A DNA stretch of 32,767 nt from Candidatus Thalassarchaeum sp. Lineage in GTDB: Archaea > Thermoplasmatota > Poseidoniia > Poseidoniales > Thalassarchaeaceae. The stretch covers positions 1 to 32,767 of the forward strand of contig JAKUOE010000007.1 in NCBI GenBank assembly GCA_022449845.1, written 5' to 3'. Under the pieces are notes generated by a model. It did not search any database and was not told the origin of the DNA. It worked only from the letters and a program-made list of their open reading frames with translations. The translations under genes were made by a program, and so were the position numbers. Of the stretch, positions 5,833-15,994 are shown one piece after another (within the stretch, counting starts at the first letter, position 1; every line of letters begins with the position of its first letter).

Positions 5833-6585
5833 GTGGTCACCGATTTCGACACCGCGCTTTCAATACTTGAAAATGGCACGCGGCGTGCCATTCTTGAGCA
5901 TCTGGTGAGGGAGGCTCACTACCCTCTGCAATTGGCTGAATTGCTCGAAGTTTCTCAACAAGCAATCATGAAACATCTGAAAGTTCTCGAAGATGCTGGA
6001 TTCGTTGTCAGTGAGAAGGTTCCCAGTGAGAAAGGGGGTCCTCCAAAGAGAATCTACGCAATTACGCAATCCTTCTCTCTTCGACTTGATCTCGGACCCG
6101 ATTTATTCCGTGCTGAACACCGGCAATTGCCTGCAGGTGGTCCTGCTCGATTGTCAAGCCGTTTGCCCAACGATGCGTTGAGTGTGGCTGAACGTGTGGG
6201 GACGCGTCGACGTTTGCCTATGGCTGAGGCAATGAGCATGCTTTCAGAATTGAACAATGAATTAGATCGGCTCGATGCTGAACGTGATGCGCTCATCGCA
6301 CTTCATCAACAAATCAAGCAGAAAGCGAGTCGCGTTGTCGATGATACGTTTGAAATCTACGAAGAGAGGCAACTCGCTCATGTCTTGCTAGAAGCACCCC
6401 GTAGACCTGTTGATCTCGATCAATTCTGTGCTGGGATGCAGATACAACCTCAACGCGCCGAAGAGATGATGGATGCACTCCGCGGGATTATGATGCGTCA
6501 ACTCGGTGCCGAAACGGGAACCATCATCGCGGCCGAGGACGATCGATTGTTGCCCTGGTGGTTGGCCAAGGCTGACCCCAAGTGA
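5833..6585 (+). CDS. ArsR-like winged-helix transcriptional regulator
   Basis: N-terminal wHTH: ALSILENGTRRAILEHLVREAHYPLQLAELLEVSQQAIMKHLKVLEDAGFVVSEK...PPKRIYAIT. A coiled-coil-like segment and a further C-terminal region follow. Confidence 0.85.
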   Translation: MVTDFDTALSILENGTRRAILEHLVREAHYPLQLAELLEVSQQAIMKHLKVLEDAGFVVSEKVPSEKGGPPKRIYAITQSFSLRLDLGPDLFRAEHRQLPAGGPARLSSRLPNDALSVAERVGTRRRLPMAEAMSMLSELNNELDRLDAERDALIALHQQIKQKASRVVDDTFEIYEERQLAHVLLEAPRRPVDLDQFCAGMQIQPQRAEEMMDALRGIMMRQLGAETGTIIAAEDDRLLPWWLAKADPK

Positions 6586-6593
6586 GTCTGCAA

Positions 6594-9500
6594 TCAGAAT
6601 CGCATTTCGTCATCAATTGAAAGCATGCTCGACTGCGCATCGACGCGGGCAAGAGCTTCGCGACGGCGGGCGACCATGACCATTCCAGCAACGGCCATCA
6701 GTGCGATGGTGAGCAGTAGAATCATGGTCGGAACCGACCATTCTCCTGCGGCCTCCAATGCGACGTCGATCCAACCGTTCTCACTCGACAGTTCGCCGAG
6801 GTCCTTCCGGTTGTTCGCTTCATTCGCCTCAATGATGAGGTTGCCCGGATCAACAATCACAGACACGTCGTGGTTACCAGCCGTGACTGGGTACAACAGT
6901 GTAATCTCAACCGCTTCAGCAGAACCGCTGTCATCTGGTGGCATCAGCGCACCGATGACTTGTCGATAAGCGACATTCTCCTCTGAACAGATGTTGTTGC
7001 GGAGGTTGTCCTGAGTTTCATCCTCACAAAGTACGATATTGATGTCCGTCGCGTGAACGTTTCCGCGATTGATAATCTGGACGTTGATCGGAATCATATC
7101 CCCAACAGGAGCCTCGACGCGCACAGCTGAGACGTCGATGAGTTCGAGGTCAGGTGCGCGAAGACGGATTCGCAGAACTTGTTCATTCGTGTCACATGGG
7201 TAGACGTTGTCCACGACACCATCGTTATCCGCATCAATCGTACAACTGTCTAGCCATGATGCGGTTTCATCGGTATCACCATTGGGTGAACCGCCGTAAT
7301 TTGATAGGACCTTGATTCCAATCTCACGATTGGCCAGCATAGCTGCCGGACTGATGTCGATAATGACCATCACTTGCACGGTAGTGTACGCTGGCATCTC
7401 AGCCAAACTCCAGGTTCCATCGGCATGGAGAGCGCAGCCGTACAATGGTGCGGCCTGACCAACTCCGAGTTCTTCACAAGGAATCTCACGAGGCAGTTCT
7501 GTGTCGAAATCCTCAACCATAGCAAAGGAGACATCCCAACTCGTCAATGAACCCATGCTGGGCTGATCGTTCCAATCATTGCCACTCTTGGTGTGGTTGT
7601 GTAGCGTGGGAATATCTGGGACGTTACCATTGTTGGTCACATTCAGAAGATAACGGACTGTGCGACCGGGCGCAGTGGTCTTGATTTGACTCTCAACGGT
7701 TTCATCAAGCCAGATTTGCATGTCATGGAACTGATTCACCGTGATATCAAACAAAATCGCATCACGCTCATCAGTGCCGTCGAAATATTCCTCACTGTAT
7801 ACCTTGACAACGACCTGATAGGTGCCTGCTACAATTTGACCAGGGATGTTGAGAATCACATCAACAGTCTCCGCATTATCGCGCTCAAGCTCTGACAAGG
7901 TTGCACGGGGAATTTCGATGTCCCAGAGTAATTGTGAACCGTTGCTGTCGGTGATTGAGGCCGTACGCATATCGTAGCGATCTGGGCCGTTACCGTCGTT
8001 CGTGGTGGTCACGGGAATGACCAGTGCTTGCCCTGGGTCTACAGCGTGAGATGTCTCTTCGGCTGTCATGTCCAAATCATACACGTGAATCACATTGGTG
8101 GATAGAATCACTGAGTCTGAGACTCTAGATGCGCCCTGCAGGTGAGCCTTGACTGTGATTGCAGGACCCAACCCAGCAGTTGCGTTCAGTGGGGCACAGA
8201 CGATGACACCAACCTCTCGTGGTACATCGATAATGGACCAATGGCGTGGTTTACTCATCTCCCCTTCATTTCCACCCGGAGCATTTGAGAAATCGAGATC
8301 CACAGTCCAGTGGTCATACTGCCATTCATTCATCGGCATACCATCTGGCTTGAGTTCAGGTGCACCTGGCGTCGTGAAAATCAGGTAACCGGGTGCGAAC
8401 TTCTTGATGACATCGATTGTGTACGTGTGGCAATCACCAGGCATCACGTATTCCGATGTATCGAAAATCTCGAAGATGATGTTGCCTGTAGAACGGATAC
8501 TGACGTTGACCCACAATTCCAGAACGTCATACGTTCCTTTGTCGAGGCTCTTGACCGGTTCGCCCATCGACCATCCTTTCAGATACAACGCGAACGTACC
8601 CGGATCTTGGGTCGTCGGCACGGAAATCTCGAGGTTCTTGGTCACGGATTGTCCGGGGTCAAGGCTGACCATCAATGGGAAGTTGATTTGCCAACCCCAA
8701 GGCAATAGCCATTCTTGTTGACCCTGCAGCGTTGTGGGGTCATAGAAAGCAAAGGTGTCGAACACGTTGCCCGTATTGGTAATCGTAATCGAGAAAATCG
8801 CAGTCTCGCCTTGCTCGACATCCGATTGGTAATGGCTCGTCTCTAACTCAATGCCGTGGACCACGTCCATCAGAGTGAGTGTCAAACGGTCGCTTCGAAT
8901 CGCTGGATCCTTGTAAGATACTGCAGAGACGACGATTTGCGCCAATTCGTCCTCATTCGCCTGATAAATCGACGGGGCGCGCACACGCAGATAGACGCGG
9001 ACAGATTCCCCTCCCATCAAGAAAATGGGCGTTTCTGGGAAAATCGCAGTGTGATTGTCTGAGAAGAACAGATTGGCCGTCCAATTCACAGGCACACCGG
9101 ATAAATTCACAGCAAACGTGTCGGAGACCAAATCGATGGGGCCTGGTGTGGAGTTGTTCACAGTCAGATTGTAGATTGTCTGCTCACCCGGTTCGATGAC
9201 GTGGTAATACGTCTCATCCTCGGCCAATTCCACATCAACCTGTCCAGTCAAGACGTGGGTGTAACATAACGTGTAGGCGCCGTTATTCGAATTCTCGTTG
9301 CATTTGTTGGTATCAGACCACGCAATATGCGCACCACTTCCAAGGTCATTTGCAAACGCTGGTGGTTGCGAAAGATCGGGCGCACGGCCATTGTTTGGGC
9401 CGAGTTTGTCACTTTGCCATTCGGTGACGTCGACGCGCTCCCATGGATCTAGAACGGCAGCGGCAATGCTGTTTAGAGGCCAATCACCAACATCGTTGGT

Positions 9501-11603
9501 ATGGTTCAAGCGAGTGTACATGATGGACTCGCCCTGAGACGTGTTTGAGTTCTCAAGCCATGAAAGGTGGATGTTGTTCTGGTTGTCAGAGAGAATCTGC
9601 GGCATGTACGACGAGGCTCGCCAGGGATCATTCGGATTGACGTTGGCATATCCCTCAACATAGGAAATTCTGGTATCGACGATTTTCTTGATACCGTAAG
9701 TGGGCAGGCCACCTGAAACGCCGTCCCATTCTGCTGAACCGCGTAGGCGGAGGCGGGAATAGTAGACTTCGTAGTTGTCGTCTTTGTCAAAACCATAGTC
9801 GCGAGTGTCCATCCATGTAAGATGTGTATCTCCACTGTTGTCAATCGCGAGTGCTGGATGTAGACTGAATGCGTCATCTAGAGTAACACGGGTATCATTG
9901 ACCACAACAAGGTGACCGTAGCCATTCGAATCTTGACTTGGGCCGAGATCCTCGGTGTAGCGATTGTTGGATTCGTCGGTTCCAGATTGTCCGTAGACCC
10001 AACCAGGTGCTGGATTCTGAATCTTTGAGTATGGATCCAAGACAGTCATGTAGATTTCACGACTGTTGTTGGTTGCTAGGAAAACCATTGCCTCAACCAA
10101 TGTAGCCATGTTGTTGGCTGAAGATGCGGGGAAAGCATACACTTGTCCTCCAGCATCAGTATTTCGGGTTGTGGAACCTGGACAAATTCGCGGGTTCATA
10201 TTCACCTGCCCGTTTGGACATTGTGCGAGATCTTTCATGTGACTTGCAACTTGGTTGTTTGCGCCCCAAGATGAACCATAAATTCCCACAGGGATTACTC
10301 CTGCATCAACGCAAGCGTCGTGAGCTTCGTTGATACTGGCAATGTCATCAGATTGTTGGGGTGGGTCTCCACCCTTGGGTCCCTCGTCACTGATTGGAAT
10401 GATAATCTTGGTTGCATTTGGATTCCATTTGTGGTCGTGTGTGGTCGGTGGGTTTCCGGGGACGTTGCCCTGTGCATCTACCCAAGACAAACATGACCAA
10501 GCACTACCTGGTCCCCAATCTTCACCTTGGTAACCGCCACTTTGTGCACCACCATTGTAGATGGTTGAGTGTAGTTTGACGAGGCCGCCCGAGTCATCTC
10601 CTAGCGTAAGGTGATTGGATCTTGGGTTCTCGTGGTGAGGTGGACTAGAACATGCGCCGCTTGTTGCAGCACTTGGGAAAAATCCACCCAATGCATACAA
10701 TGTTTCGAATACCGAGATGTTCGCCTCTTCAAGCATAGGCTTGATTCCGGGGAATGTGCCGCCGTTGGACCATGAGCCGCCGTAGAAAACAACACACATG
10801 TCGGCCCATTCTGAATACATGGAACCTGATGTATCGATTGCTGAAACAATCTCCACCTTTCCACCACGGGTATCATCCCATGCAATCTGCACGAAATCAT
10901 CTGCATCGATTGCGATGTCAGGGTGGCCTTTGTGCCCAATGATGGGCGTCAATAGCGTGCTGTCAATCGCTGTGATTGCTTCACGGGATGCCTCATCGAT
11001 CTCTAGGAATTTGTAGTAAATTTGTGGTTGTTGGAAATACTTGTCGTGTCGATCGTACGAGTCTTCCCACACGATGTGGACATTGTCCTGACTGTCAACT
11101 GCGAGTGCGGGCCAATCTCGGTTCTGTTGTCGGCGTACAACTTCTGTATCATCGATAATTGAGATTGTGCTGTCATCAGCAGATGTGCCATCCTGATCGT
11201 CCAAGCTAGGGTCGAGTAGCGTGTACAGGATTTCGTGTTGGCTGGCCTTGTTGGCCCATGTGACGTGGACGCGGTCCTCTGAATCGATGTCGATATCGGG
11301 GTGCCAAGCACGATGGCCGCCGCCGTTCGAAATTTGGGTGACGTCGATGACGGTTTGAGCACGAGGATCTAGCATCGTGTAGTAGAGATGCTGTGTGTTT
11401 CGTGACCAGATGACGTGGATGTTGCCTTCGCTATCACTTGTCATCGATGCCATTCGTTCGTTGACTGCGCCACCATCGACAAGTTGCACTGCGTCAGTAA
11501 TGACCACAGATGCACCTTGAGCAGTTGGTGGTGTGTATGCAACCAATGTTGTGCTCATCAAGAAAATCATCACCATTGTGATGCTACCATATTTGTTGTT
11601 CAT
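6594..11603 (-). CDS. Large secreted/cell-surface protein: N-terminal signal, beta-propeller-like repeats, inserted VWA domain, several CARDB/NEW3-like Ig repeats, C-terminal TM anchor
   Basis: 1669 aa. Signal-like N-terminus ITMVMIFLMSTTLVAYTPPTAQGA. Repeats of the type D(S/A)xxxxHxxWxD; VWA MIDAS DTSGSM; repeats such as VEQGETAIFSITITNTGNVFDTFAF and VRVEAPVGDMIPINVQIINRGNVHATDI; terminal TM PTMILLLTIALMAVAGMVMVARRR. Confidence 0.88.
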   Translation of the reverse strand: MNNKYGSITMVMIFLMSTTLVAYTPPTAQGASVVITDAVQLVDGGAVNERMASMTSDSEGNIHVIWSRNTQHLYYTMLDPRAQTVIDVTQISNGGGHRAWHPDIDIDSEDRVHVTWANKASQHEILYTLLDPSLDDQDGTSADDSTISIIDDTEVVRRQQNRDWPALAVDSQDNVHIVWEDSYDRHDKYFQQPQIYYKFLEIDEASREAITAIDSTLLTPIIGHKGHPDIAIDADDFVQIAWDDTRGGKVEIVSAIDTSGSMYSEWADMCVVFYGGSWSNGGTFPGIKPMLEEANISVFETLYALGGFFPSAATSGACSSPPHHENPRSNHLTLGDDSGGLVKLHSTIYNGGAQSGGYQGEDWGPGSAWSCLSWVDAQGNVPGNPPTTHDHKWNPNATKIIIPISDEGPKGGDPPQQSDDIASINEAHDACVDAGVIPVGIYGSSWGANNQVASHMKDLAQCPNGQVNMNPRICPGSTTRNTDAGGQVYAFPASSANNMATLVEAMVFLATNNSREIYMTVLDPYSKIQNPAPGWVYGQSGTDESNNRYTEDLGPSQDSNGYGHLVVVNDTRVTLDDAFSLHPALAIDNSGDTHLTWMDTRDYGFDKDDNYEVYYSRLRLRGSAEWDGVSGGLPTYGIKKIVDTRISYVEGYANVNPNDPWRASSYMPQILSDNQNNIHLSWLENSNTSQGESIMYTRLNHTNDVGDWPLNSIAAAVLDPWERVDVTEWQSDKLGPNNGRAPDLSQPPAFANDLGSGAHIAWSDTNKCNENSNNGAYTLCYTHVLTGQVDVELAEDETYYHVIEPGEQTIYNLTVNNSTPGPIDLVSDTFAVNLSGVPVNWTANLFFSDNHTAIFPETPIFLMGGESVRVYLRVRAPSIYQANEDELAQIVVSAVSYKDPAIRSDRLTLTLMDVVHGIELETSHYQSDVEQGETAIFSITITNTGNVFDTFAFYDPTTLQGQQEWLLPWGWQINFPLMVSLDPGQSVTKNLEISVPTTQDPGTFALYLKGWSMGEPVKSLDKGTYDVLELWVNVSIRSTGNIIFEIFDTSEYVMPGDCHTYTIDVIKKFAPGYLIFTTPGAPELKPDGMPMNEWQYDHWTVDLDFSNAPGGNEGEMSKPRHWSIIDVPREVGVIVCAPLNATAGLGPAITVKAHLQGASRVSDSVILSTNVIHVYDLDMTAEETSHAVDPGQALVIPVTTTNDGNGPDRYDMRTASITDSNGSQLLWDIEIPRATLSELERDNAETVDVILNIPGQIVAGTYQVVVKVYSEEYFDGTDERDAILFDITVNQFHDMQIWLDETVESQIKTTAPGRTVRYLLNVTNNGNVPDIPTLHNHTKSGNDWNDQPSMGSLTSWDVSFAMVEDFDTELPREIPCEELGVGQAAPLYGCALHADGTWSLAEMPAYTTVQVMVIIDISPAAMLANREIGIKVLSNYGGSPNGDTDETASWLDSCTIDADNDGVVDNVYPCDTNEQVLRIRLRAPDLELIDVSAVRVEAPVGDMIPINVQIINRGNVHATDINIVLCEDETQDNLRNNICSEENVAYRQVIGALMPPDDSGSAEAVEITLLYPVTAGNHDVSVIVDPGNLIIEANEANNRKDLGELSSENGWIDVALEAAGEWSVPTMILLLTIALMAVAGMVMVARRREALARVDAQSSMLSIDDEMRF

Positions 11604-11712: not shown

Positions 11713-12333
11713 TCAAGCCCATTCAGAGGGGTCAAAGCCAGTTCCGAAACCACCAGTTTCGTCGGTCTCAACCTCGCGTGTCGAATGGGTGGCTTCAGGC
11801 TCGGGTTGGTTGCCGCCCTTGGCCCAATCATCTACAGGGCCAGGCTTCCCAATTCCAGGACCATAGGAGAATTTGATTTCATGGATGACTGACAACTTGG
11901 ATAACCACAATCGTCGGAGTGTTTGCATCACTTCATTCTGCGTGACCCCATCGAACCATGTAGGCATTGAGAGATTGAATGCTTGCAAGGGACCTGGTTT
12001 TTCCTCTCCGTGCCCTACATGTAACACCCAATCAACATGTGATCGAGTGAGGCGGAGGCGTGTTTCATGAAGCCATTCTTCCCAACCATGGGCGTCGTCA
12101 TTCGCATGTTTGGCCATCTCATCTTGTTGTCCAGCATCGACTTGTGTGACACTGGAAATGACCAACAAATTGCGACCCTTTGGAGATAAGACATTGAACA
12201 GATGTCCATGCTTGGTTGGAGGGTATCTGACTAGAAAATGAAAGTCAGCCCGTGGGTCTTCGCGATCCCTGATTTCAAGTCCTTCACCGGACAACCATTT
12301 CCGCACATTTCCCTCGATATCCCGGGTCGCCAT
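11713..12333 (-). CDS. Conserved hypothetical archaeal protein (possibly DUF2299-like)
   Basis: 206-aa ORF, MATRDIEGNVRKWLSGEGLEIRDREDPRADFHFLVRYPP..., filling the gap between neighbours. Family assignment is from memory only. Confidence 0.55.
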   Translation of the reverse strand: MATRDIEGNVRKWLSGEGLEIRDREDPRADFHFLVRYPPTKHGHLFNVLSPKGRNLLVISSVTQVDAGQQDEMAKHANDDAHGWEEWLHETRLRLTRSHVDWVLHVGHGEEKPGPLQAFNLSMPTWFDGVTQNEVMQTLRRLWLSKLSVIHEIKFSYGPGIGKPGPVDDWAKGGNQPEPEATHSTREVETDETGGFGTGFDPSEWA

Positions 12334-14374: not shown

Positions 14375-15994
14375 TCAATCCGACTCATGGAGACCATCGT
14401 AATTTGTGCCCAAATAGGCGGCCCAACTGAGGTGATTGGGTGTGGTCGCATTCAAATCCATTCGCGTGACTGTCCAAGATGCGGTAGTGGATGAATAACC
14501 CGTTGTTGTAGTCGCAATCAATTCCAAGTCTCCATCCTGATCCAAATCGACAATGGTGGGAGTTCCTATGCTCATCTCACTTCGATTGTAGAGTTCTGTA
14601 TTCTCAAAATTACATGAGTTGAGAATGGATGCTTGATTGTGGAAAATGTAGGCTTCATTCCCAGAAAATAGTTCACCTGCACCCCGAATCATCAGAATCT
14701 CATCTCGGCTATCTCCGTCTAAATCTGCAGCCAAGGGACTGGTGAAACTGGTGTGTTCAGTGTCCTCTATCCAAAGGATTTGGCCGGTGGCCCCATCGAC
14801 CAACAAACTCGTTGAACCGGTGTACATTGGGAAGGCACCAATGACGTAGTGCGTGAATACATCTGGAACGGCGTCATCTGTGAAGTAACCAATGGCTGGT
14901 GATGCCCAAGATTCGGCGTCTGTGACCGTTCCACCGGATGTGTGGTCTTTGACATCAATCGACCAGATTTCAGAATAATTTCGTCCATCGATTGCTAGCA
15001 ATCGACCATCAAATGTACTCACGACGAGGTCCTGAATTCCATCGAGTGTGAGGTCGGCGATGGATGGGGGAGCCATGACGCCCTTCGCCACGTTCGGGGT
15101 TGGATCAACAATTCGCTGGGCGCTGGTGAGATCACCGGCCATGATGGCGTCGATGGAGGTCGTCCAAAGTCCTCCATCCCAAGTCTCACCACCCGTCCCA
15201 AAGAGGACTTCAATTTCCATCGAGGGATGAGGGTGATAGAGGAGGGGAGACATGTATGTCTCACGACCATCAGGGGTATCGGCCACGGCAAGAAGTTCGC
15301 CGGATGCGCCTGAAATAATCATCAGATATCCGTTGTCGCGTGGAGCACTGGGTCCCTGTGTGGGGTCACCTCCGTTCGAAGTCAACCAATCCTGGATGCC
15401 GTCCTGATTCTGATCGGCAATGAAGTGACCTGTGTAGAATTGATACCATTGTTCGCGTTCATCATTGTTAGAATCGAATTGCCAGATGATGCTGCCATCG
15501 ATTCCACTGAGTGCGAACAGTTGGTGATTGCGGCCGCCTAGAATCACGTCGAGTGTGTCATCTCCATCGAGATGGGCAAATTGAGCGGAGGCAAACATCT
15601 CGCCTGAGGCATTGTTCTCCCAGAGGAGTGTACCATTCGAACCATCCAACGCGATAATGCTGCCCGTCACTTCTTCTTCGATTCCTGTGCCCACTACGAT
15701 GTCAAGGATATCGTCCCCGGTGAGATCAACAGTGTGTAGAGATGACATCATCCGATTGGATCCCGTAGCTGTCCAACTTGTTGCAAATTCTGATGAAGGT
15801 GTGGAGGAACAGGTGTGAACTGTTGCGCATTCGCTTCCCTCTGGACATGGAGGGTGGTCTGGAATCGCTAAATCTGGAACGGTTCGAGTGTCTTCATTGA
15901 CTTCCGTTGAATCAGGAATGTTGGCTACTTGGATTAGGAGAATCAAAATCACGGTTAGGATTGCAACTCCCTTGTAGTCAGAGATGGAGCGCAT
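14375..15994 (-). CDS. Secreted FG-GAP/integrin-alpha-like beta-propeller protein
   Basis: N-terminal TM/signal GVAILTVILILLIQVANI. Repeated Ca-loop-like motifs: DLTGDDILDIVVG, HLDGDDTLDVILG, DQNQDGIQDWLT, DLTLDGIQDLVVS, DLDGDSRDEILM, DLDQDGDLELIAT. Confidence 0.87.
   Translation of the reverse strand: MRSISDYKGVAILTVILILLIQVANIPDSTEVNEDTRTVPDLAIPDHPPCPEGSECATVHTCSSTPSSEFATSWTATGSNRMMSSLHTVDLTGDDILDIVVGTGIEEEVTGSIIALDGSNGTLLWENNASGEMFASAQFAHLDGDDTLDVILGGRNHQLFALSGIDGSIIWQFDSNNDEREQWYQFYTGHFIADQNQDGIQDWLTSNGGDPTQGPSAPRDNGYLMIISGASGELLAVADTPDGRETYMSPLLYHPHPSMEIEVLFGTGGETWDGGLWTTSIDAIMAGDLTSAQRIVDPTPNVAKGVMAPPSIADLTLDGIQDLVVSTFDGRLLAIDGRNYSEIWSIDVKDHTSGGTVTDAESWASPAIGYFTDDAVPDVFTHYVIGAFPMYTGSTSLLVDGATGQILWIEDTEHTSFTSPLAADLDGDSRDEILMIRGAGELFSGNEAYIFHNQASILNSCNFENTELYNRSEMSIGTPTIVDLDQDGDLELIATTTTGYSSTTASWTVTRMDLNATTPNHLSWAAYLGTNYDGLHESD

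Follow-up and report, generated by a model that had tools for sequence, protein, structure and literature searches.

A probable VWA-type insertion in one blade of a seven-bladed surface propeller protein of Marine Group II archaea

The window analysed here, a stretch of 32,767 nucleotides, belongs to a MAG of Marine Group II (Poseidoniales) whose nearest records are Candidatus Thalassarchaeaceae. It contains an open reading frame on the minus strand (6594–11603) that encodes a protein of 1669 amino acids, the N-terminal part of which was read by a first-pass annotation as a seven-repeat β-propeller with a whole VWA domain inside one blade. This architecture raises the question of whether the VWA-like segment interrupts a single propeller or lies between two separate domains, and what such a head would do. 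Our analysis favors the former arrangement. The gene probably encodes a Poseidoniales type I membrane protein in which a VWA domain located in the B–C hairpin of blade 4 of a seven-bladed propeller acts at the cell surface, where it binds ligands or mediates adhesion through a metal.

Organization of the protein and continuity of the propeller

All parts of the protein are encoded on the minus strand. A signal peptide (amino acids 1–30, 11514–11603), read from a hydrophobic stretch followed by TAQG-A, precedes blades 1–3 and strands A and B of blade 4 (amino acids 34–248, 10860–11504), a region that carries motif copies 1–4 and is covered by profile hits 1–219 across Poseidoniales genomes. The inserted VWA-type domain (amino acids 249–512, 10068–10859) is followed by strands C and D of blade 4 and by blades 5–7 (amino acids 513–790, 9234–10067), where motif copies 5–7 and profile hit 210–504 are found, with cysteines 768 and 780 located in blade 7. 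The first-pass annotation had also reported CARDB/NEW3-like repeats and a C-terminal membrane anchor, and both are present. The former constitute a stalk of Ig-like β-sandwich domains of the DUF7507, NEW3-like and CARDB types (amino acids 791–1615, 6759–9233), for which the Pfam matches to CARDB (1.4e-10) and DUF7507 (2.4e-8) are both above the cut-off. The latter is a single transmembrane helix (amino acids 1623–1645, 6669–6737) that coincides with the hydropathy maximum of the protein (2.66 over 19 residues). A short cytoplasmic tail of about 24 residues (amino acids 1646–1669, 6597–6668) displays a conserved RR and a conserved [QK][ST]S in the family tail alignment.

The propeller is built of seven D-x-x-G-N-x-H-x-x-W...YYTxLD repeats. 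A generalized form of this motif recovers all seven sites within residues 1–812, and 2000 shuffles of the same region produce an average of 0.024 hits and a maximum of 2. The positions of the seven motifs, of IVSAIDTSGSM (with D257 at 10835) and of the strand that resumes after the insert are those given by the first-pass annotation. The resuming strand, SREIYMTVLDPYSK (10023–10064), is strand C of blade 4. The loops that connect strands B and C measure 6, 8, 15, 274, 15, 11 and 16 residues in blades 1 to 7, respectively, and in each of the 37 family members that were compared, truncated ones included, blade 4 is the only blade whose B–C loop is long. The protein contains no S-x-D-x-G-x-x-W motif, which canonical Asp-box (BNR) propellers carry between strands 3 and 4; one homologue has a BNR_4 match (1.7e-5).

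The comparison with homologues that lack the insert, which the first-pass annotation had proposed as a check, supports a split blade. A profile made of the joined flanks of the insert (A2) gives two-piece matches in Poseidoniales genomes, which stop and restart at the junction, and finds propellers without the insert in other Thermoplasmatota families; no Poseidoniales copy without the insert was seen in this search. One of the insert-less proteins, L129 (668 amino acids, from another Thermoplasmatota family), contains exactly seven blades, followed by a transmembrane segment and two winged HTH domains. Its alignment to the profile crosses the junction unbroken, blade 4 to blade 4 (i-E 2e-19), so that IAWSERDGNNVEIFSSIIDPYGE of L129 corresponds to IAWDDTRGG[VWA]NSREIYMTVLDPYSK of the 1669-residue protein.

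The structural evidence is of lower quality. An AlphaFold2 model of the head (residues 30–812), folded from shallow alignments (20–23 sequences) with the head drawn from 20 orthologues, has a mean pLDDT of 44.5 and a pTM of 0.54. This low-confidence model retains the four-strand rhythm of the blades and has the insert leaving the propeller after strand B of blade 4 and returning at strand C. Its top Foldseek matches in the PDB are β-propellers, namely PLL lectins, sialidases, BT3686-type glycoside hydrolases and their relatives. Several of these propeller matches cover nearly the whole query and two span 782–788 columns with a TMt of about 0.6. We regard these matches as supportive of one propeller rather than as proof. 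At the sequence level, no significant PDB match was obtained for the full-length protein, for the insert or for the propeller. Closure of the ring cannot be proved from so weak a model, which leaves some room for a VWA domain placed between two separate domains, such as units of four and three blades or a pair of incomplete propellers. Such an arrangement is nevertheless very improbable considering that (i) strand C of blade 4 comes after the insert, (ii) the seven blades of L129 are contiguous and in register without it, and (iii) the whole-length Foldseek matches are to single propellers.

The inserted domain

The insert comprises about 262 residues and is supported as VWA-like at the level of sequence comparison. 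Of ten family members, two have a match to Pfam VWA (PF00092), the better one at E 0.004; the insert of the 1669-residue protein itself gives no score. In a profile comparison with HHalign, the insert matched 27 Thermoplasmatota VWA domains with a probability of 87% and a score of 44.7; 30 column-shuffled controls reached at most 1% and a score of 19, and the propeller profile reached 0.05%. The first 60 columns of the insert, which are dominated by the DxSxS strand, gave 94.5% on their own.

The DxSxS and β4 Asp residues expected of a MIDAS are strongly conserved. Three of them, D257, S259 and S261, belong to the MIDAS-like DTSGS (amino acids 257–261, 10821–10835) and are invariant in 27 orthologues. 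The same is true of D406 of ISDEGP (10386–10388), a MIDAS-type aspartate after β4 that aligns with the aspartate of the VWA LTDG motif and is invariant in the broader set as well (37 of 37). A candidate for the second-loop MIDAS threonine, S/T367, is conserved in most members in a locally uncertain alignment. The β1 DxSxS and β4 Asp regions of the insert align with those of PF00092 VWA domains of Thermoplasmatota. The insert differs from these domains in being about 80 residues longer, in having six cysteines (270, 318, 371, 431, 462 and 474) that are invariant in all 37 members, and in carrying the family-specific motifs ExWGP and SDEGP.

For the insert alone, AlphaFold2 reached a pLDDT of 41.8, and a Foldseek search with this low-confidence model returned no VWA domain and no hit at E 0.001. 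Because the quality of the model is poor, this check of the fold is uninformative. Of the two structural expectations attached to the first-pass annotation, the one concerning the propeller gains support from the top PDB matches, and the VWA fold of the insert is left unconfirmed. The VWA assignment stands on sequence, through DTSGSM, the Pfam matches and the HHalign comparison.

Weak relatives of the VWA domain occur in another family of the same phylum (f5), in proteins without a run of propeller motifs. The domain thus seems to be a module not confined to propellers.

Distribution, gene neighborhood and possible role

Nearly all members of Marine Group II have the protein. Family matches are found in 57 of 59 relatives and, at E 1e-6, in 122 of the 146 genomes of the class, all from families f1 and f2. 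The sister family f3 has no match at this threshold and yields weak generic propeller matches at a looser cut-off; viral contigs contain no relatives. Every member of the protein family that we saw has the insertion, and no member was found in f3; the insertion is therefore old and appears to be ancestral to the order.

Across paralogues, invariant columns make up 16% of the VWA domain and 4–8% of the propeller parts. The VWA domain is therefore the best conserved large part of the protein, which suggests that it carries the function. In the paralogues L064–L068, an extra 145–275 residues, for which Pfam gave no match, are nested inside the VWA domain near its last helix. Two other paralogues, L060 and L061, have an unchanged architecture and a damaged MIDAS (DSSGGM and DSSTGM, respectively), and metal binding is thus not needed in every copy. 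In one genome, a second copy (L024:12559-14211), a frame of 551 amino acids cut by the contig end, lies directly downstream of the first.

The putative function put forward by the first-pass annotation, adhesion or the binding of a ligand by way of a metal, is reasonable and, at the cell surface, the most likely one. In Asp-box propellers, the 2–3 loop forms the variable, functional top face (PMC2716378). Were this also true of the present protein, both termini of the VWA domain would lie side by side and fix it to the variable top face of the propeller, from which the MIDAS would point outward. The stalk would lift the head off the membrane, and the MIDAS metal could bind an acidic group of a ligand, either a protein or a polysaccharide. 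The simplest reading is that an acidic ligand is bound through the metal in adhesion or capture; most likely, the protein would adhere to particles, polymers or other cells, or capture a surface partner.

The gene neighborhood bears on a different possibility. Directly upstream, on the same strand, is a DUF2299 gene (11713–12333, minus strand; Pfam PF10061, 3.5e-14), which is syntenic across the order; on the other side, a convergent gene (5833–6585, plus strand) encodes an ArsR-type HTH regulator (Pfam HTH_20, 3.9e-13) and is syntenic in most of the order. The gene order DUF2299, VWA-propeller, ArsR-type HTH is kept over most of the order. The head could be mainly a sensor, with ligand binding by the propeller and the VWA domain relayed via the transmembrane helix and the tail, perhaps to the neighboring HTH regulator. 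The conserved short tail and the synteny of the HTH gene are in line with this idea, as is L129, in which a propeller, a transmembrane segment and two winged HTH domains form the layout of a one-component sensor. However, the tail of about 24 residues holds no known signaling domain, the HTH gene is convergent and hence not co-transcribed, and genes of Topoisomerase VI are often found near the VWA-propeller gene, so the neighbors may simply be housekeeping genes. We therefore consider a sensor unlikely.

Further along the window, a gene at 14375–15994 (minus strand) encodes an FG-GAP/FAM234-like propeller protein of 539 amino acids. This gene lies close to the HIT, acyltransferase, DUF2299 and VWA-propeller genes and shares their strand. 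FG-GAP repeats are those of the integrin type.

The size of the protein, its richness in Ig-like domains and the occurrence of an orthologue in nearly every genome would also suit an S-layer-like structural component of the envelope, in which the VWA domain joins neighboring subunits and binds no outside ligand. N-glycosylation sequons are located mostly in the stalk, and the stalk resembles a putative S-layer protein model weakly, below the cut-off. Even so, we judge a structural role of this kind to be distinctly unlikely.

Adhesion or ligand capture remains the preferred reading. Among the planktonic archaea of surface ocean waters, none are more abundant than Marine Group II, of which no representative is in culture and for which adhesion is thought to be important (PMC6461757). 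A surface protein that nearly all of them carry, and whose head could plausibly bind in a metal-dependent manner, is therefore a concrete candidate receptor.

Comparison with known systems

Searches of an open-access literature collection returned no description of a propeller from archaea or bacteria with a VWA domain inserted in it. A homologous architecture is found in L129, which shares the seven-bladed propeller and the repeat motif and resembles a one-component regulator bound to the membrane, encoded in a related Thermoplasmatota genome. It differs from the 1669-residue protein in having neither the VWA insert nor the Ig stalk, and in possessing cytoplasmic winged HTH domains. Type 2 (interrupted) Asp-box propellers such as the Vibrio cholerae sialidase likewise consist of one propeller with a binding domain inserted into it (PMC2716378), but the inserted domain there is lectin-like, and canonical Asp-boxes are absent from the archaeal protein. 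Bacterial integrin-type propellers were analyzed by Chouhan et al. without I domains, and had no TM helix (PMC3192720).

The overall layout is reminiscent of the α subunits of vertebrate α-I integrins (such as α-L, α-X and α-E), in which a MIDAS VWA domain is set in a seven-bladed propeller head and a β-sandwich stalk leads to a single transmembrane helix and a short tail. The GFFKR tail motif is known from integrins. We tried and rejected membership in the integrin α family, as the archaeal protein has no FG-GAP match, carries its insert in another blade and another loop, and has no GFFKR after the transmembrane helix. Integrin α subunits have FG-GAP/Cage repeats and an I domain located between blades 2 and 3; the I domain is a chordate innovation, and the α subunit pairs with a β subunit (PMC3192720, PMC12422189). 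The archaeal insert, in contrast, emerges from blade 4, in the loop that joins strands B and C. It is quite improbable, in our view, that the protein is an independently evolved archaeal counterpart of α-I integrins in the full sense, in which a MIDAS VWA domain on the top face of a propeller head, itself carried by an Ig-like stalk, would bind its ligand through the metal and pass a conformational signal across the membrane via the conserved tail. Because the propeller family, the blade and the loop all differ, we read the likeness to the α-I integrin layout as convergent. This suggests that a head of the α-I type, a VWA domain on a propeller, has had at least two origins, with different propeller families and different insertion points.
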